Of a stretch of 64,000 bases of DNA, positions 718 to 58,300 are shown piece by piece (positions within the stretch are counted from its first letter, which is position 1; the number at the start of each line of letters is the position of its first letter). Below the pieces are notes generated by a model, which was not told the origin of the DNA, searched no databases, and saw nothing but the letters and a program-made list of their open reading frames with translations. This DNA comes from Apostichopus japonicus (Eukaryota; Echinodermata; Holothuroidea; Aspidochirotida; Stichopodidae): assembly GCF_037975245.1 (NCBI RefSeq), contig NC_092567.1, positions 21,736,376 through 21,800,375 of the forward strand, given 5' to 3'. Position numbers and translations under genes: made by a program.

Positions 718-20414
<19,697 letters not shown>

Positions 20415-29969: not shown

Positions 29970-30758
29970 TTATCTAAACATGGTTTTCTTAACTCTTGTG
30001 AGAGCCACCTTATTTTCCTGTTTGAGTCTCCTAGCTGCCTCACGTATATGCTTGGGTCTGAGAGGACCTGTGTCTCCCCACTGATGCATCACGTCCAAAC
30101 CCTTCTCCACAATTTCTCCCACATAAACCTTTGCAACACCAGACATAGCAATCACCACATTCTGTGAAATAGATCCCCCTGTAACAGATTGCATGTACCT
30201 CTTAATCACTGCCTTGGGAAAAGAAGACCTCCGGTACATTTCGTATCGATCCAGTTGATCCTCTGAAAATGCTGCCACCAACAGTGACATCTTCATTCTT
30301 TGTTCCTCGTCTAATTCCTCTTTGCTCTTTTCTACCTGATTGTCCGAGATGAGAGTCTGTGAAGATGTCTCTTCTTCCACAAGAGATGTCTCATTCTTGT
30401 CCTGCTCTTGGGATGGCTGACTTAAAGTAGGTTCTGTGATTGCACTTTCTTGTGACATGGGAGAGTTTGACAGTCCATAATCTGTTTTTGGCACAGTGTC
30501 GGATTTCTGGCTTGAGGAATCAAAGTCAGTTGCAGTAAAAGAGAAGGGAGATACACTTTTTCTGGTTTCCAATGACTTATGTCCCCTTTCATTGATTTCT
30601 TGATCAGGTTCAATTTCCTCAAAAGCTTGAGAATGAACATTGTCTAATTTCGGTTTTCCCTCCACAGGAAAATCATCAAAATCTGGGGTTTTAGGGCGAA
30701 GTATTGATTCTGGTGACCCAGGAGGAGACCCTTGAATAGGCCAGTTCGTCCAATCCAT
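29970..30758 (-). CDS. TAF11: TFIID subunit 11 (TAF11)
   Basis: TAF11 is a nuclear subunit of TFIID that pairs with TAF13 through a histone fold and helps load TBP on core promoters. The 262-residue product is in one open exon and is longer than the human protein (211). Residues 1-150 are acidic, Ser/Pro-rich and poorly conserved. From about 158 to 247 the histone fold is clear: [20 protein letters not shown], then [20 protein letters not shown], then [13 protein letters not shown], close to vertebrate TAF11. The TAA is at 29970-29972. The ATG at 30758 comes directly after a good splice acceptor (ttgttttacag on this strand), so a 5' UTR exon probably lies upstream. The gene is head to head with the E2-like gene. 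Confidence 0.95.
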
Positions 30759-31138
30759 CTGTAAAACAAGCAGGAAGAACTGTAACAGGAGGTTAATTGT
30801 TACTGTTGACAGTGTTAGGCTGGGCTACAATTACTTTGGTATGATACTACTTTAACATGGAAAATTGAAACCGAGGCAAATGAACAGAAAATTCAAATCA
30901 AAATAACTAACATAACGCTTTTATTAAGTAGCACGATACGTTTTGACCTGACACCCAAAGGAGTTGAAAGTTTCTTTCTATAGATGCTGTTGACAATGAC
31001 ACTAGCCTATTGCTTACGTGTTAGAGTAGGCCTAGGGTACATTGGTAGGCAACATTTCGTGGAACTAGGCCTACGGTAGCAAATACAGTAGGTGGAAGAA
31101 CAAATATTCAACATAAAAAGAGATGATTGAAATGTTAC

Positions 31139-33438: not shown

Positions 33439-34775
33439 GTGAGTTATTCTCATTTCTACAAGTTACAATTTATGTTAATTGCATTTGTGTTACTTCAAAT
33501 TGATTGGCAACAAAACTAATGAACATGCACTGTATATATGCGTTCCGTCATCATTATATGTGCACTTGTTCTTTCTCACAATGACAATATGGTCATAATA
33601 CTATTTAACAGCCAAAAATATTGTCATTACCCGATAGCCAACTCCTCAGGAGAGTATATATGGTTTCCATACTGCAATATATGCCGATACGTTCAGCCCC
33701 TGACCCATGACAAGGCAGAGCCAATCACATGTATAGCCAGTGCTTCAGGAAAATTCCCTTTCACAAACTGAAACTGCTCAACTGTTTATATACAGTAATT
33801 AACTCTATAATTACAAATAATCAAATGCTTGTAACCAAATAGATCTCTTTTTAAAGCATTTAGATCAAGCAGTGGCCTGCACAAAGGGGTTCCAGGGGAG
33901 GGGCATGCTCCCATCTGTGTCGTCAGGTAACTGCATGTTCAGTCAGGATATTTTTCACATTCAGTCATGGAAAAACTAGACTGCTCCAGACCCCAGGATA
34001 CCATTCCAATAATGTTTCATTCCCCTAGCTAAACCAGTTGGGTGTAAATTAGAATTTTCCACCCTGACCCCGCCCCCGAACCTTGGACATCTGTGCGTAT
34101 TACTAAGGTTGGGGACATCCAAGTATGAGTGACAATACCTTGGCTTAGTCTGCATGATGCAATGTACCTACTGAGTCAAAATTCATTGTTTAACTTTGAC
34201 ATTTCAATACATATGGATTGACTTTTGTAGTTGATATTGAATCTTTACAGATTAAGCCTGACCTGCTCAGACCAGACCAAGCACCTGATGTTCGCTGCCT
34301 GACACAGATTTATCACCCCAACATAGATACAATCGAAGATGACGGAGATCTTTGCCTTAATCTCTTCGAAGAATGGCAAAGCCATTTCAGTCTGCAAGAT
34401 GTCGTACAGGGTCTCTTGTTCCTACTTTACAATCCAAACTTGGAAGACGCCCTCTGTCCCATTTTTTCTCCCGATATGACGATGGAAGAATTTACTACAA
34501 ACGTGAAGCGTTCATTGAATGGGGAGGCGATTGAAGGCTACCATTTCCCAAAGAACCAGACAAAACCCAGACCAGAAGCAGATAGAACAGACACAGATTG
34601 CAATGGTAGCACAGAATACAGCAAGGAAGTGAGCTTTGAATCTGGCAAATTTGGTAATAATTACAAGCAAATTGCCAAGAGCGTCATGAGTTCTGCTGAA
34701 CCGCAAATGACGAAAAACATTGCAAATGTTAATATGTTTGAAGATGGACTAACTCTGTCCACTGCAAAAAGATAA
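33271..34775 (+). CDS. UBC-fold E2-like protein (nearest to NEDD8 E2s UBE2M/UBE2F)
   Basis: E2 enzymes carry ubiquitin or a ubiquitin-like protein on a cysteine. Two exons, 33271-33438 and 34251-34775, join in phase 0 (donor gtgagt, acceptor tttacag) to give 230 residues. The join reads GEFIFS-IKPDLL, the usual E2 strand 3 region. HPN is at 78-80 and the likely catalytic cysteine is C91 in GDLCLNLFEEW. YHPNID, CLNL, the LxxxPNLED block and a final EGYHF resemble UBE2M. Odd points: three extra residues between HPN and the cysteine, no UBE2M-style amino-terminal E1-docking arm, and a polar tail of about 70 residues after the domain. Membership of the E2 superfamily is firm; the modifier it carries is not known. 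Confidence 0.85.
34251..34775 (+). CDS. E2-like protein exon 2
   Basis: The exon starts after acceptor atctttacag and encodes the HPN motif, active-site cysteine, C-terminal helices and a tail rich in Lys, Glu, Asn and Ser. It stops at TAA 34773-34775. The open frame upstream of 34251 is intron. Confidence 0.87.
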   Translation: MKPDLLRPDQAPDVRCLTQIYHPNIDTIEDDGDLCLNLFEEWQSHFSLQDVVQGLLFLLYNPNLEDALCPIFSPDMTMEEFTTNVKRSLNGEAIEGYHFPKNQTKPRPEADRTDTDCNGSTEYSKEVSFESGKFGNNYKQIAKSVMSSAEPQMTKNIANVNMFEDGLTLSTAKR

Positions 34776-39278: not shown

Positions 39279-39383
39279 TCAGAATTCATCGTGTCTGGTA
39301 AGAGCTTCACCAAAGTCTGTAGCTTGGCTTCCGACAAACAGGTCATACTGATCCAAGATCTCTCGCTTTGTCAGTTGGTCATC
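39279..39383 (-). CDS. CALU: calumenin exon 6: EF-hand 6 and HDEF tail
   Basis: After acceptor ctctcag it encodes [20 protein letters not shown] and then the end ALTRHDEF, with TGA at 39279-39281. HDEF is the ER-retention form found in calumenin. Confidence 0.95.
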
Positions 39384-42300
39384 CTGAGAGAAAGAAATAT
39401 TAATAGGAATATTACTCAGAAATTAATATTTCATAAATAAATATTTGCAGAAATGAATATGAGTTTGAATGAGAAAAAAAATTTGTCTACCATCCTTTAT
39501 AAACTATAACACTTTGATAGTATTGTATGAATTCTCTCCTTGGGATTTCGTACAAAAGGCAGTTGTCTCCTGCGCTCCCTCCCCCCCATCCCCAAAGTTC
39601 AGGCCACAACATTCAGGTTAGTTTACTGGCTATATGCCAGGTGATCTCCCCCATTTGCCAGTACAGAAAAGGTACTTGTATTTTTCTGCCAGTAGATATC
39701 TAGAGTTTGAAGAGATGATAAGGCGGGAAATAAAAAACAGGCATGTTCTTTGTGCCTAACAAAAGCCCTGCATTGATGTTTATTTATCAGCAAATATTAT
39801 TGGGCTCTTCCCTCTACAGTACCAATATTGTGAATTTCTAGGCCTGATATGTCAACAACTTGAGCATCATCTCCACAGAGTAATGGTACATAGCCCCACC
39901 ATCCTCACCTTGTTAACGTCCGTCTCGTACATGAGGTGCTTAGCTTCTGCCTCGGCGTGGTCGTACTCCGTCGGTAAGATCCACTCACCGATCTCCTGAG
40001 AGTTCATCTTCCCATCGCCGTCCCTGTCCCGGTAAAGACCAAACTGTTCTCGTTCTTGGGCGACCCACGCCGGTTCGTCCTCACCTTCCGTCTCCGGTTT
40101 GAACATGTCACCTGGTGCAGACGAAAATAATCAACTTTATAGCTCCACCAAGCAGCAAAGAGGGACTAGGAAAGATTGTCACCATGTCAGACTCTGAGAC
40201 TACGGAGTACAGAATGTTAGCCATGGCATTCTGGCATCCAAATACATTCTTGTATTCATAAAGCAATAATTGACACTAAAGAAATGGAATATGAGAGGTG
40301 TAAAGTATGCAAATGGTTGCTTTCTATTTTCCAGGTGATCTATTTTCCACTTTTGTCCAGGACTCCATGCCATATTTTTGTCATTGGTAATCTGTAGTGT
40401 CATAATACTTCAGTTCAGAGAGTTAAAAAAAATTTGCTACATTCTGGTACTAAACTAGTCTTTTAATGAAAGATACGCTTAATTAACATCCTAAAGTCAA
40501 TTTAAGTTGTACCAGGAATAACGGAATTAAACAAAACTTCAACAGGTCGCAAATATATCAAAAGAAAACATTACCTTTAAATTGTGTGGCACAAATGTTT
40601 CTGTACTGCTCTTATGTGATTTTTAACTCTACATAGTACAAGCTCCTAATTAGTTGTAACTACATCTAGGTTCCATAGTTTTCTGGACTGCTCCAAATGA
40701 TTTGTGACTCTACTTTGTAGCTCTGTCAAATAAATAGTAACTATATGTAGGCCTCTACGGATAAATTATCCAACAATGCATGAATATAACATGGTGGCAT
40801 TCAGAATATGAAGTGCAAATTTGAGGCTTCAAGTTTCACACGGTTCATAGGGTGCTGGTTAGCTTACCTATGTACTCTTCCAGTGAAAGAAAACCATCTC
40901 CGTCTATGTCGATGTCCTCCAGTGTCTCTTCGATGACGATGTTCCTCATATGAGGTGACTCCTCGGGATGCAGGAAACTGGTGAATTCTTCTATGGTTAG
41001 ATCCCCGTCGCGATCCTGGTCTGCGTGGAACCACCTCTTCTTGTCTCTGCGGATCATTTTGCGGAAGTCCAATCTCTCGTTTTCCTCTAATCGCACTAGT
41101 TCTGCCTCTAAAAGATTTAGAAAACGAGAAAATGGGCTTGTAACTTAGGCAAATCTTTCTGTGACAGTGACAAAAACTGTGAGCTCTGAGGGGGGGCTTA
41201 CCCCCCCCCCAACCCACCTACCATGCAACAACAAACAGCTGAGAATACTAATCCACCAACCCTCCCCCAGCCCAGCCCCATTCTATGCTACAGTACACCA
41301 CAAGTTAAGGATATTTCCTCCCTTCACCCATTTAGTGAACAAGCTGATATGACAAAATTCTCTTTCACTTTAATATGAACAACATGCCACATCACCAACT
41401 TCCAACCACCCCCCCTCCTTCCCCCTCACCTCATCTCTCTCCATTCCCTACCATCTTATTTCCACCTTTATCTTTCTTTGACTGACCTGTTACATCCTAC
41501 TTTAATTATTTATTGAATTAAAGTAATTACGTCATTGATGTCAACTGCTTGTTCTCCTGTTAAGGTGATAGAGATCCATGAACAGGAGACACTGACAAAA
41601 CTTTCAGAAACGGCAACCAAGAGGAGAAGGGAGGGGGGGGTGGGGCGGGGCTCTTGGAGGCAGGATAACTGTGAATATTTAGGGATACACGATAAATAGA
41701 CATCATGGGACTATAGTCATGACTTTGGTTTTTGTTCTTTGTTTGCTTCAGTTCTGGAAAAGAGACCAGAGTTTGCTTTGAGGTTACCCCAATATTTGAA
41801 ATCCTACGTACACACCCAAGGGATTCACGTTCCATCAAGCAACGGACGGTTTCTCTGTTTTACAATGGTTATGACAGGCACTCACCCAACTTTGGTGTAG
41901 TTATTAGTACTCCATAGGCCATGTAAATATATTCCCCAATGGTAACCTTTCCATCCCTATTATAGTCTCGAATTTTCCAAACACTGGCGGAATGAGCCAC
42001 GTTTGATAAATGCTGAATGTAGATAACAGGAAGTATCTCAAGGAAGGTCAAAGGTCATGAATGCTGAAACATGCATTAGTATATATGCAGGAGTATGATG
42101 AGCGAACAAAAAAAAAAATAAAGCAATGTTAGCTAGGGCCACACCATCTGAGGAATGCTCATAGCATTGGTCACCACTCATGGAAAGATTTTTTTGTAAT
42201 GTTTAGAAATTTCAGTTTTGGCATTCACAACCTTTGACATGAGGGGAAACGATTAGGATACCAGATGTCTAGGCTGAAATGTGGTAAGGTATCCTTAAAT

Positions 42301-44307
42301 ACATACCAGATAGACTACTGTATGTGGTTTCATTATATTCATTCCATGTAAGTTTGTCATCGGCATCTTGGTTGTGAGCCTTCCATTGCCTATCAACATC
42401 CTCAAATATGTAACGTTTCTACAAACGAAGATGGAAAAAAAGCAGGTAAATGGGTAAGTTTGGTGAATGGAAGCAAAAGAAATTTGATACAGCATTACTG
42501 GCACATACCAATACAGTATTAAATAGATGAAATAAATTCACAGAAGATATAATACTGAGGTACATAGTTCCATAATTTTCAGGAAAAATGGAAGTTTTCC
42601 ACAATTATCATACAAACATCCTCTGAACTGGAAGTTATCATCTTATATCTGACTATAGGGTAAAGTAGCTGAATTCACCAGAAAAGGCGGTGACTTTGAG
42701 AGGGCAAATTTCAGTTGCAGTTGTGATTTGGTGTATAATTTTAGTGACAATGACAGCCAGTTGGGACAATTTTTGATATACTCTAGTGTCAAGTCGCGCT
42801 TCAGAGCACTTGTATTGTCAGTACCAGCAGTATGAATATCAGGAACTGTTTGTACTGTCAACACCGGTGCTTTAAAGCATGATATTGGAGTACAGTTTAG
42901 AGAGGTATTAGCATTAGGAAATTGTCCCAACTGGCTGACAATGCACATAGTGAGCTACTTTCAAAGCTTGCCTGTCTCTGCAAAGGGTTTCAAGGTCATA
43001 AGTATTGCCCCAAAACTAAGCATGTTAAAATACCGCTAACCAGTTTTTAAAAGTACTTTCCTGAAGGTTCTGACTGCACTCCAAATTATTCACAGACATG
43101 GAATCAGTCAAATAAACTACTAAGTAAGCAACAAATGCTCTGAGCAAAGAAGTAAAATACTTGCTGAAATGACCATTAAATTGACTGTTCTAGTATATTG
43201 ATGGCTACTGAATGACCTTAAAGGGAATCTCAGGCTAATCGCTGAAATCTCTAATACTGAATACAAAGATTGGTTGAAATTGACATCGAGGTATTGCATC
43301 ACCCGAGGAAATAATCACGGACGAGACTTGCTGGACTTACCTGTTGATGTTCAATATGTTTCTTTAACTCTTCCATCGTAACATATCCATCCCTGTCACT
43401 GTCTATTCTGTCAACGATTTTACTGCAGAGGAAACACCAGAAAATTGGGATATATATATGTATGCAAGATTTTAACAAGTAGGCCCTGCCACATCAAATG
43501 GTGAAGAATTCTTCATCAGTAATGTGAAAAGAACCAATAACGTGACACAGAAGTCATGAAATTCAACTGAATATACTAGGAGGTAAACTTACGATGATAA
43601 TATAAATGTTTTACAATACAATTATGATCTGAAATATTTCATTTTTTACAAAGTATTTGTAGTAAAATACATGAAAGGAACAGCCTTCCTAATTCATGAC
43701 TATATGAAAGAATGAACAGTGAAGACTATTTATGACACTTTGTGCATGTATGCACACAGCTTTTGCCATTTTGGGTCCATGTATTGCAATGAATTAATGA
43801 CTGTTCCACAGTTCTACCTAGCATAGTTTCAGCAAGTGTTGTACATGTCAGGCTTCAAAACACTTGCTGTGGGCTGTACACCCTTCTGACAGTATTTGTA
43901 TGGATATCCTATTCCTAACTTCCAGCAAGATAGCTTTGAAAACATTACATGAAATTCGCGTGTAACTAGTAAGAGACTAGAGTGGTATTAGCATTACAAA
44001 ATTGTCCCAACTGGCTGTGCATAGCGTGGTACAAATTGTTAGAGATGCTCCACCCAACTTACCCAAGCCTGTCTCTGCTCTCCTCCGGTGTCAAAGATTC
44101 AAACGTTTTCGCATCTTCATCCCCTAAAAACGCATCGTGGTCATAGTCTGCATTATGCTGGTGACCATCTCCTTCGTAATGTTCTTGGCCACTTAATTTG
44201 GGATCTTTTCTAATCCTGTCACTTTCTGCAGGTTTGGCAGACACAAGTCTTGATGTGGCAAGAAACAGAGCTAGTGCCAGCACCGTACACTGTGATAAGT
44301 ACTGCAT
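39279..44307 (-). CDS. CALU: calumenin (CREC-family EF-hand protein of the secretory pathway)
   Basis: Calumenin is a low-affinity calcium protein of the ER and secretory route. Exons in transcript order: 44307-44063, 43422-43341, then either 42418-42307 (A) or 42012-41886 (B), then 41107-40868, 40111-39909, 39383-39279. With A the product is 328 residues, with B 333 (human 315). A signal peptide ([15 protein letters not shown], cut near residue 24) comes first. EF loops by residue (form A): 1 [12 protein letters not shown] (89-100), 2 in exon A or B, 3 [12 protein letters not shown] (176-187), 4 [12 protein letters not shown] (213-224), 5 [12 protein letters not shown] (255-266), 6 [12 protein letters not shown] (291-302). 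It ends HDEF, the calumenin ER-retention signal, after [11 protein letters not shown]. All junctions are GT-AG and keep frame. Confidence 0.96.
39909..40111 (-). CDS. CALU: calumenin exon 5: EF-hand 5
   Basis: The 203-bp exon has acceptor tgcaccag and donor GTGAGG. It encodes [12 protein letters not shown], the loop [12 protein letters not shown], and [20 protein letters not shown], nearly identical in pattern to vertebrate calumenin. EF-hand 6 starts at its end (DVNK). Confidence 0.95.
40868..41107 (-). CDS. CALU: calumenin exon 4: EF-hands 3 and 4
   Basis: The 240-bp exon has acceptor cttttag and donor GTAAGC. It encodes [20 protein letters not shown], then FLHPEE, a CREC hallmark, and [17 protein letters not shown]. 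Both loops are canonical. It completes the Glu codon begun by exon 3A or 3B. Confidence 0.95.
41886..42012 (-). CDS. CALU: calumenin exon 3B: alternative EF-hand 2, canonical loop
   Basis: The 127-bp exon lies 294 bp downstream of 3A, with acceptor acattcag and donor GTGAGT. It has the same phases as 3A (in at 0, out with one base). It encodes [15 protein letters not shown], the loop [12 protein letters not shown], and YIYMAYGVL plus six more residues. Its first 36 residues align with 3A without gaps, sharing W12, K13, D20, K22, T24, E27, Y28, Y33 and L36. Joining 3A to 3B shifts frame and meets a stop, so the two should be mutually exclusive. Confidence 0.82.
42307..42418 (-). CDS. CALU: calumenin exon 3A: EF-hand 2, degenerate loop
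   Basis: The 112-bp exon enters in phase 0 after acceptor tttgtag and leaves one base before donor GTATGT. It encodes [16 protein letters not shown] and the loop [12 protein letters not shown]. Position 1 is Asn and position 6 is Asp rather than Gly, so calcium binding may be weak. It matches vertebrate calumenin RWIYEDVERQWK closely and is probably the ancestral form. Confidence 0.93.
42753..42935. mobile_element. small TIR element in a calumenin intron
   Basis: The ends are ACAGCCAGTTGGGACAATTT and, inverted, GCCAGTTGGGACAATTT. A perfect 8-bp repeat TGACAATG flanks it (42745-42752, 42936-42943). It is 183 bp with no coding capacity, in the intron between calumenin exons 2 and 3A. The 8-bp duplication fits hAT or P-type insertion. 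Confidence 0.75.
43341..43422 (-). CDS. CALU: calumenin exon 2: EF-hand 1
   Basis: The 82-bp exon has acceptor tctgcag and donor GTAAGT. It encodes [19 protein letters not shown] with a canonical loop, then KKHIEHQQ. It ends in phase 0. Confidence 0.95.
43976..44023. mobile_element. solo right end of the same TIR family
   Basis: GGTATTAGCATTA then AAATTGTCCCAACTGGCTG repeats the right end of the 42753-42935 element. No left end was seen nearby. It is in calumenin intron 1. Confidence 0.65.
44063..44307 (-). CDS. CALU: calumenin exon 1: signal peptide and acidic amino terminus
   Basis: The exon begins with ATG at 44307. A hydrophobic leader is followed by a His/Asp-rich stretch ([14 protein letters not shown]) and [11 protein letters not shown], typical of the CREC family. 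Donor GTAAGT; two bases of a Gly codon are left over. Confidence 0.94.
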
Positions 44308-55300: not shown

Positions 55301-58300
55301 CCAGTGTCTATTAAACTTCTATAAATCAGACATGTCTCAAGTACTAGTATGAGTACACAGTACAGATCCACAAGGCAGAATGTGAGGACAGGTAGAAGAT
55401 TAGTACATGTATAGGACTCATATACATAAGTCATGTTGTATCCTGCAAGCAGTAACTCGCGAAGAAGCCTCATTGGCTTATCAAAGCCGCAAGCTGACTG
55501 AAGTCAGTCTCTTACATTCATATTTAACATCCATGATTATGAATTGTCAATTGTCAACAACTCTGTAACTGGATGACATATATATTAATCTTGGAGTGAC
55601 TCGAACCAGGGACTTTATGATTGAAAGGCACCGGCGTTAACCACTGAGCTAACACTCCTATGTGACTCTGACATGTGACTTTGGACTAATGATATTAAGT
55701 AATCTCTCCACTAGAGATCCACATGGTTAATGCATGCAGTTTGAACTTTGTCTAAGCCAAATAGAAGCTTAACTAGTATAGCGCATGGCTGGCTACCTTA
55801 AAGTCACATTGTGAATGGGTTTTTTTTTTGTTCAGTCCAGAAATACTCCTTTTAAGCTGCTCTGTCTGGTTTTGTTTGGTACAGGTGTATCCTAAAGTTT
55901 GTGGAGTGTAATTGACTACTTTATGGCATTCTTGAGCTTTCATTGACCCCAAAAGCCAACAATATATATATTTAAAAATATAAAAGTAAAAGAATGATAT
56001 AAATAGTTAAGAAGGAGACAGAGATATTTTAAACACTTTAAGATAGAAATTCATTATATCGCGATGGACCGTGGGATTTATTGATCGACTCATTATTGAC
56101 CAATTTGACCCACAGAGCACATTGGCTTCGGAAGGTAAGGGGGGAGGGGGGGGGGAGTCGATCTCAATATTTAGCAACCGAATACTTTATGATTCCTGTT
56201 TGCATTTAAAGTTTTGTCACTAAGACATTTCAGCATAGTACATGTCACATGCTAATTGTAAATTTGAGAAAATTTGCACGTTTCTTTGAAACTACAAAGT
56301 AACTGCAATTTTACAAGAGTACTACACTACATTGTAGCAACAAATATAAGTTTTTCTGAATACATAACATGGCATTTTTATCAAATTTTTTGTTAGGATG
56401 ATTGACATTAGAATGTTTAACACAATTTCCTGGGCGACTATTCCTCCCAGTTCATCCCCCTCCCCTCCCCCTGAGGAATGCTGCACAAACCAGTCACTGC
56501 CTCTCACATATGCTAAATCCCAGGGGAAACCCTGCATCACATAGTCAGATAAAACGTATCAGTCATGTATGATGCAGGGATTGTAAAACTAAGACCAGTC
56601 GCATGGAACTAAGTACTTCAGTGCAGTTTAAAAGCTTAATACGAATGTATATTAAACTATATACCACCATTCCGACCTTTATCCTTCCAAGTACAGTATA
56701 TACTGTAATTTGGGAATTAAGTAAAAACAAATAGCGGTGTTTACTTGTTGGCTAATGTTTACTCTGTTTACATATTTGGCTTTGATGTGGGGGAGTAGAT
56801 AACTCCCCAAGGTTAATGGTAGTCTGCAATTAGTTATCCAACCAAATAAGTTGAAAGATTATTTTTAGTTAAAATACATATCTGAATCAAACCGTGCTGC
56901 TCGCTCGTAAAAAAAAAAGGGAGTTTGAGAACCATGCATAATTTAAAGAACCGTTATCAGATGTCAGCTCTGTGTAAGGTTCTCAGGAATAATGCCGTAA
57001 GATTAAGGCTTGCGAGTTTGTGTGTGATATTAAACAGTTTGAGGCTTTCTGTAAACATGGCTTGTCAGAAGCACAGACAGTGCTCAATGAAACAAATACG
57101 TTTCGTTTTCAAATTGTGTACATAGCATGATACCAATTCCGTGCGACGATGAACAGGACAAACTTGCAATGGTTGTCTGGTCGTCTGAGACAACCAAATT
57201 TCTGTTTGGGATACCAAACTCTGCCTTGGAGGTTGTCCAGTTTTGCTGACTTGTAAATGTGCCCGAATGTCAAAGCAGTCGGAGAAAGTCTGTGAGTGCC
57301 GTCTTGGGCAAAGAGAAAAGAATGTTTCTCACCTTAGCTCCAACCAAGGTGGCTGAGGGCGGAGGGCTGAGGGCTTAGTTCAGTGGGGATACCCTCCATG
57401 TTTAGGAATATCATTTCCCATCATCCCTAGGGATCTGTGAATGGCAAAGGGGTTGAGGACTTAGGATGTAAGCTCAAGAATGACGGTTGTGTTGTCTTCT
57501 CCTTTAAGTAGCAAATAAACGTTAACTTTGACAGCAAAGCTTAGTCATAGATCTTTGAGAAAATGATTATTCATATTTCGTTAATATAATAATCCGATTC
57601 AGATTAATAATATTTGTTTTCTCTGTATGTTTCTTTCTATCTTTACCAGAGGTATTCTAGCATGCATTGTTGCCTTTTGTCTTTTTGGAATGACACAAGC
57701 CAAAGATGGTCCCTTCACCCGACCTCACCCTGCCTTCTGGAGGCTCGTCCTCTGTCTCAGTGTGGTTTACGAACTTGCCTTAGTCTACATGCTCTTCCAG
57801 GTAACGTTTAACAGGCCATTCGTTAAAGCAGCTTTTGGAATTCATTTTAATATTAAAAGTCTTTATCATACTGGATATTAAACTTCATAAAATTGTGTTT
57901 CATTTAATAACGTCACTAAGTCTAATTTTGTTTCAAATAATGAAGTAAAATTGTGTGCAATATACTACCGTTTTGTATATATATTTATATGTGTGTGTGT
58001 GGTTAATCTGAAAAGTGTCTAGACAGAAAAATTATTCTCCCTGGAAAAAAGTCATTAATTACTCAATCATTTAAGGAAAAGAATACAGGTCTACAAGGAT
58101 GTGAATAAGGATAAATACAGACTGCAAATCATAGAGGCACACTTCCTTGTCTGCTGCTGTGTCCTCGGAAAGTTAACAGGGAGTGTGATGTAAAATTTCT
58201 AGATAAATATTTGTTGTCCTTTCAAATTCAATCACCCCTCCCCTCCCCCACCCCCACCTTTCTGCAATTTTCAGAAAATAGTTTTGTTGTAAAGAGTCAT

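Follow-up and report, generated by a model that had tools for sequence, protein, structure and literature searches.

Tandem EF-hand 2 exons of a sea cucumber calumenin gene: a probable mutually exclusive pair that would switch a calcium loop and the sole predicted N-glycosylation site

The closest described system is human CALU, whose exons 4 and 5 are mutually exclusive (PMC5877393, with a CALU supporting figure in PMC4465641), and the parallel to it that was drawn in a preliminary description of the locus treated here is a real one. As reported in PMC5877393, the exclusivity was shown via full-length RNA-seq, Sanger sequencing and smRNA FISH, and an exon length of about 194 nt can be derived from the probe coordinates given there. 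The same exons are named 3 and 4 in PMC3325945, the isoforms being calumenin-1 and calumenin-2, and the intron between them is given as 73 nt (PMC7969005). A 2025 review differs, and speaks of two calumenin gene copies that differ in exon 2 (PMC12516920). Among unrelated genes, the alpha-actinins ACTN1 and ACTN4 carry mutually exclusive EF-hand exons of which only one keeps calcium binding (PMC9741552). Exons 4a and 4b of OGDH are likewise mutually exclusive and give Ca2+-sensitive and -insensitive isoforms via a DxDxD site, at the first position of which a D>A change loses Ca2+ sensitivity (PMC7969005), but the site is not an EF-hand, and exclusion proceeds through distant branch points in a short intron, of which a simple motif scan of the 150 bases upstream of either acceptor gave no sign at the present locus. 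The repeated origin of such pairs within one gene is also a known pattern, human and Drosophila having unrelated tandem exon pairs in 27 orthologous gene families; CALU and echinoderms do not occur in the main text of the paper concerned (PMC9741552). No report of the pair described below was found among the matches listed in the literature on calumenin or CALU (exclusive exons, echinoderm, sea urchin, Apostichopus japonicus).

The calumenin gene of A. japonicus is situated on the minus strand of the window (the whole 64-kb stretch of DNA analysed), its coding part spanning 44307-39279 and its translation ending in RHDEF and a stop codon. Exon 1 (coding part, 44063..44307) begins with the ATG at 44307 and encodes a hydrophobic N-terminus, seen in the translation as a stretch following the start codon, and an acidic region; it has an open frame and a gtaagt donor, and the corresponding exon of a paralogue aligns to it. 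Exon 2 (43341..43422) carries EF-hand 1, exon 4 (40868..41107) EF-hands 3 and 4, and exon 5 (39909..40111) EF-hand 5 together with the beginning of EF-hand 6, all with open frames and loops that can be lined up, and exon 6 (coding part, 39279..39383) contributes, also in an open frame, the remainder of EF-hand 6, HDEF and the stop. Between exons 2 and 4 lie two candidate versions of EF-hand 2, separated by an intron of 294 nt (42013..42306). Exon 3A (42307..42418, 112 nt) has a non-canonical loop and a sequon and is identical at 21/37 positions to the EF-hand 2 exon of the paralogue, and exon 3B (41886..42012, 127 nt), with a canonical loop and without a sequon, is delineated by its frame, EF-hand pattern and alignments and by a drift simulation; an in-frame acceptor upstream, at 42036, could lengthen it by eight residues. 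The protein comprises 328 aa with 3A alone and 333 aa with 3B alone, both frames being open to HDEF, and Pfam EF-hand families score above cut-off. The PS00018 EF-hand pattern matches five of the six loops with 3A and all six with 3B, giving five and six canonical loops, respectively; an intron interrupts EF-hand 6, whose match appears only in the spliced sequence.

Recomputation returned the exon coordinates, phases and splice exits of 3A and 3B given in the preliminary description. The two exons are adjacent, are of the same splice type and have equal phases, each being 1 mod 3 in length, entered in phase 0 and left in phase 1, and the frame is lost if both or neither are used. When 3A is joined to 3B, for which a stop within some 20 codons had been predicted, the stop is observed after 17 codons, inside 3B; 74 nt separate it from the following junction, and three junctions lie downstream of it. 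Skipping both exons also breaks the frame, as had been claimed, the stop falling after three residues of exon 4 and 228 nt before the next junction. By the 50-nt rule for nonsense-mediated decay (NMD), which was used to class premature stops, the positions of these stops make both wrong products, the one with 3A and 3B and the one with neither, predicted NMD targets. The calumenin identity of the gene, the tandem homologous EF-hand 2 exons and the exclusivity enforced by the frame are all backed by the sequence. The two alternative exons for EF-hand 2 in this echinoderm gene are a real pair and very probably a functional one.

The splice sites were assessed with a simple position-weight score, in bits. 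On this scale the acceptors of 3A and 3B reach 6.5 and 2.6 bits and their donors 3.4 and 4.8 bits; the weakest true acceptor in the gene is that of 3B, which counts against its use, and the weakest true donor is that of 3A. Both exons have GT..AG splice sites, and only 4.4% of the AGs and 0.7% of the GTs on both strands of the window reach the scores of those of 3B. Exon 3B is also the sole AG..GT segment on the two strands of the window that combines a length of 60-250 nt, splice scores at least equal to its own, an open phase-0 frame and a length of 1 mod 3, exon 3A dropping out through its weaker donor.

A second calumenin-type gene (L016, L017; C7:26648500-26662900), which also ends in HDEF, lies at a distance of about 4.9 Mb on the contig of the window. 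Its introns around EF-hand 2 occupy the same positions, and its EF-hand 2 loop likewise starts with Asn. The gap-free alignment of 3A and 3B proposed earlier was recovered from residue 1, with 9/37 identities and a BLOSUM62 score of 23, as good as which none of 20000 shuffles proved, and among offsets from -6 to 6 only offset 0 is positive. If splice scores are disregarded, the two introns on either side of 3A contain 52 candidate exons, of which 3B comes out on top; outside the gene, 2269 candidates were scored against 3A, and all fell short of 3B. Alignments, shuffles and candidate ranking agree in pointing to homologous coding sequence in the two exons, as in a mutually exclusive pair. When the loop is left out, the match of 3B to 3A is equalled by 174 of 20000 shuffles and that to EF-hand 2 of the paralogue by 40, and the matches to EF-hands 1, 3, 4, 5 and 6 are poorer (1729 to 17675 of 20000 shuffles as good). 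The non-loop residues, the phases and the position, taken together, therefore identify 3B as a duplicate of the exon for EF-hand 2. Two results count against this: with the loop included, 3B scores 24 against EF-hand 3 and 23 against 3A, and among the 16194 stop-free 37-mers of the window, ranked by their scores against 3A plus the paralogue exon, it comes third, behind 3A and EF-hand 3. No third copy of the exon is evident among the 15 best of these 37-mers. A DNA search of the genome, which included the 3A-3B intron and flank and skipped very common words, found no second region of this kind; a repeat or transposon origin of 3B was considered and set aside, the search having returned only 3B itself.

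Translated in six frames, the 64-kb window contains five matches to PS00018, all within the calumenin gene and one of them 3B, and 150 window-length Markov sequences (first-order, trained on the window without the calumenin exons) gave three matches altogether, corresponding to 0.02 expected per 64 kb. Scored as a whole against Pfam EF-hand_1, the protein reaches 52.3 bits with 3A and 65.1 bits with 3B. However, 3B alone scores 13.3 bits, below the cut-off of 25.4, 3A alone matches no family, and the number of EF-hand_1 stretches recognized by Pfam is four in either isoform, observations that were counted against the pair. The similarity of 3A and 3B, finally, corresponds to 13.6% of the self-score of 3A with free end gaps and to 3.9% with end gaps charged, and thus lies below the setting of at least 15% of the self-score used in a finder of mutually exclusive exons (PMC3228551), a comparison that is approximate, the gap costs being self-chosen, and that likewise counts against the pair.

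The two exons contrast in the canonicality of the loop and in the sequon, which goes beyond what the preliminary description had mentioned. The loop of 3A has an Asn at the first calcium ligand, is without the central Gly and fails PS00018, and the EF-hand 2 loop of the paralogue, NQNGDSKITWHE, likewise fails. The loop of 3B is canonical and passes, so that, at the level of the sequence, one member of the pair is canonical and the other is not. The only N-glycosylation sequon of the protein, NETT at residue 138 (N138), is located in 3A, and 3B has none; in the paralogue, read to exon 4, the only sequon is NQTT, at the same place as the NETT of 3A. The isoform-specific segments also differ in acidity, with eight D/E residues for 3A and three for 3B. 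Exon choice may accordingly be viewed as a possible calcium/glycan switch, in which a change of the calcium site would be accompanied by gain or loss of the sole predicted N-glycan site. We know of no glycan change for the exon pair of alpha-actinin, a cytosolic protein. N131 of the human protein also lies in the exit helix of EF-hand 2, a single residue beyond the sequon position of 3A. In human calumenin-2 it is a predicted glycosylation site, and the mutation N131A leads to degradation, for which the authors name absence of the glycan and misfolding as alternative causes (PMC3325945).

When neutral drift was simulated from 3B, and runs were counted as intact if the open frame, the AG..GT dinucleotides and the EF-hand pattern were all kept, 76, 6, 0 and 0 of 3000 runs were intact at 70%, 50%, 35% and 25% identity, respectively. 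Set against the 24% identity of 3B to 3A, this makes it very likely that selection has held 3B, an indirect argument since the identity counts both branches. It bears directly on the reading of 3B as the defunct remnant of an ancient exon duplication, left unspliced beside a constitutive 3A. The weakest acceptor of the gene, the unremarkable codon usage and the 9/37 identity to 3A would all suit a relic, but at 24% identity the exon still has an open frame, its AG and GT and a fully matching EF-hand pattern, and with none of the 3000 simulations retaining all three features down to 35% identity such a fate appears quite improbable. Codon usage in 3B is not distinctive, 8% of the 127-nt intron segments scoring as well, which counts against an exon in use; among its three frames, frame 0 scores highest, and codon usage was dropped as support. 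A retrocopy recording the splicing was not present among 14 genome matches (best candidates scored), all of which proceed exon by exon. Alternatively, 3B could be a regulated poison exon, spliced in alongside 3A so that the frame shifts, NMD sets in and calumenin output falls, no 3B protein being made. The 294-nt intron permits splicing of both exons, and the ensuing stop inside 3B, with its distance to the next junction and the three junctions beyond, is of the kind such regulation would use. A poison exon requires neither an open EF-hand framed for the joining of exon 2, 3B and exon 4 nor a phase-matched 3' end, however, and an open frame together with an EF-hand is rarely retained in the drift simulation, which renders this reading unlikely.

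The pair could also be homologous to the vertebrate CALU pair, inherited from a deuterostome ancestor with the exon boundaries altered later. The gene family, the gene segment, with both pairs over EF-hand 2, and the presence of two homologous alternative exons are the same in the two cases, and the 5' boundary appears coincident. Yet neither size nor spacing agrees, the human exons being of about 194 nt and separated by 73 nt, as compared to 112 and 127 nt and 294 nt here, and exon 4 of the sea cucumber gene runs uninterrupted through EF-hand 3, within which the human exon presumably ends. Both human alternative exons keep a canonical loop and a sequon, whereas here the canonical loop is found only in 3B and the sequon only in 3A. 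The two human EF-hand 2 stretches are identical at 21/37 positions, and over the same 37 columns 3B shows 11/37 and 9/37 identities to the two human exons (BLOSUM62 36 and 36) and 9/37 to 3A. In addition, no 3B-like exon was found in the introns read around EF-hand 2 of the paralogue, whose positions match those of the present gene, and 3B thus arose after the gene duplication or was lost by the paralogue. Exon size and spacing, and tentatively the similarity pattern, favour two separate duplications, and common descent with the human exons seems unlikely; the 3A/3B pair is, by these sequence comparisons, most likely independent of that of vertebrates. A more distant CREC-like EF-hand gene, ending in VHDEF, was also observed (L018; C11:15507000-15516900). 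Among the other genome contigs relatives were limited to one distant match, in a bacterial MAG, with none in viral contigs, and none of the best 60 of 151 solved structures is named calumenin or reticulocalbin.

The explanation that we consider probable is that 3A and 3B constitute a tandem-duplicated and diverged EF-hand 2 pair, used singly, that switches the Ca2+ loop and the N-glycan and originated independently of the vertebrate pair. Each transcript would carry 3A or 3B. The 3A form would have a weak or empty EF-hand 2 and one N-glycan, and the 3B form six canonical Ca2+ loops, a working EF-hand 2 and no glycan. As an intron of 294 nt has sufficient length for splicing, NMD is preferred over steric hindrance, and wrong combinations would be removed rather than prevented; in the simplest mechanism the splice sites may compete and NMD would clear the wrong products. 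For steric hindrance, the limit between a 5' splice site and the branch point is roughly 50 nt (PMC7969005), which the intron between 3A and 3B clearly exceeds. Exclusion of this type, or through a distant branch point, found no support, given the 294-nt intron and with the best branch-like motifs in a 150-base scan placed 64, 36 and 117 nt before 3B. Folding of the 3A-3B intron gave a z of -3.3, with 1/200 shuffles as good, and 5/100 random window segments have a z as low; an RNA structural switch is not claimed. The same intron contains a 24-nt inverted repeat (42047-42070 and 42215-42238; 83%), the arm nearer 3B covering a decoy acceptor and a branch-like site. A 25-nt inverted repeat with 92% complementarity is present in intron 2 (42748-42772 and 42919-42943), and by eye its arm also occurs in intron 1 at 43984-44017, resembling a foldback element.

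Other genes in the window are of TAF11 type (TAFII28; 29973-30824, minus strand), or encode a ubiquitin-conjugating-enzyme domain (34200-34772, plus strand), exons of a protein tyrosine phosphatase (12638-14007, plus strand) and the start of a phosphatidylserine synthase domain (57585-57878, plus strand). Elsewhere in the assembly, contig C35 (16,099 bases) carries a COX1 that fits Pfam best when translated with table 9, the echinoderm/flatworm code (504.9 bits, as compared to 491.3, 483.3, 474.1 and 472.2 bits with tables 24, 4, 5 and 13), the mitochondrial code thus being of the echinoderm type. Several COX1-like fragments with TGA codons (L022-L026, contig C29) represent pieces of mitochondrial DNA, either a small contig or a nuclear copy. 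A set of 18 differentially expressed genes common to regenerating Hydra, planarian and A. japonicus includes calumenin (PMC5764997), and calumenin-B appears in a table of A. japonicus miR-133 targets (PMC4519775), where either of the two calumenin-type genes may be meant.

The position of the pair below the 15% similarity setting suggests that strongly diverged exon pairs may escape exon finders that rely on similarity thresholds. A naturally sequon-free exon such as 3B could also help to separate loss of the glycan from misfolding as the cause of the N131A phenotype. A more far-reaching proposal, to which we give somewhat less than even credence, is that calumenin of an echinoderm independently re-evolved a mutually exclusive EF-hand 2 exon pair, in the segment that is also paired in vertebrates, in which 3B adds a Ca2+ site absent from the main exons of both paralogues and drops the sole N-glycan site, a single splice choice thereby setting both calcium binding and glycan-dependent stability. 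If the independent origin holds true, deuterostomes would on at least two occasions have duplicated the same short EF-hand 2 segment of this ER/secreted calcium-binding protein and turned the copies into alternatives, a sign that selection favours having EF-hand 2 of calumenin in two forms.
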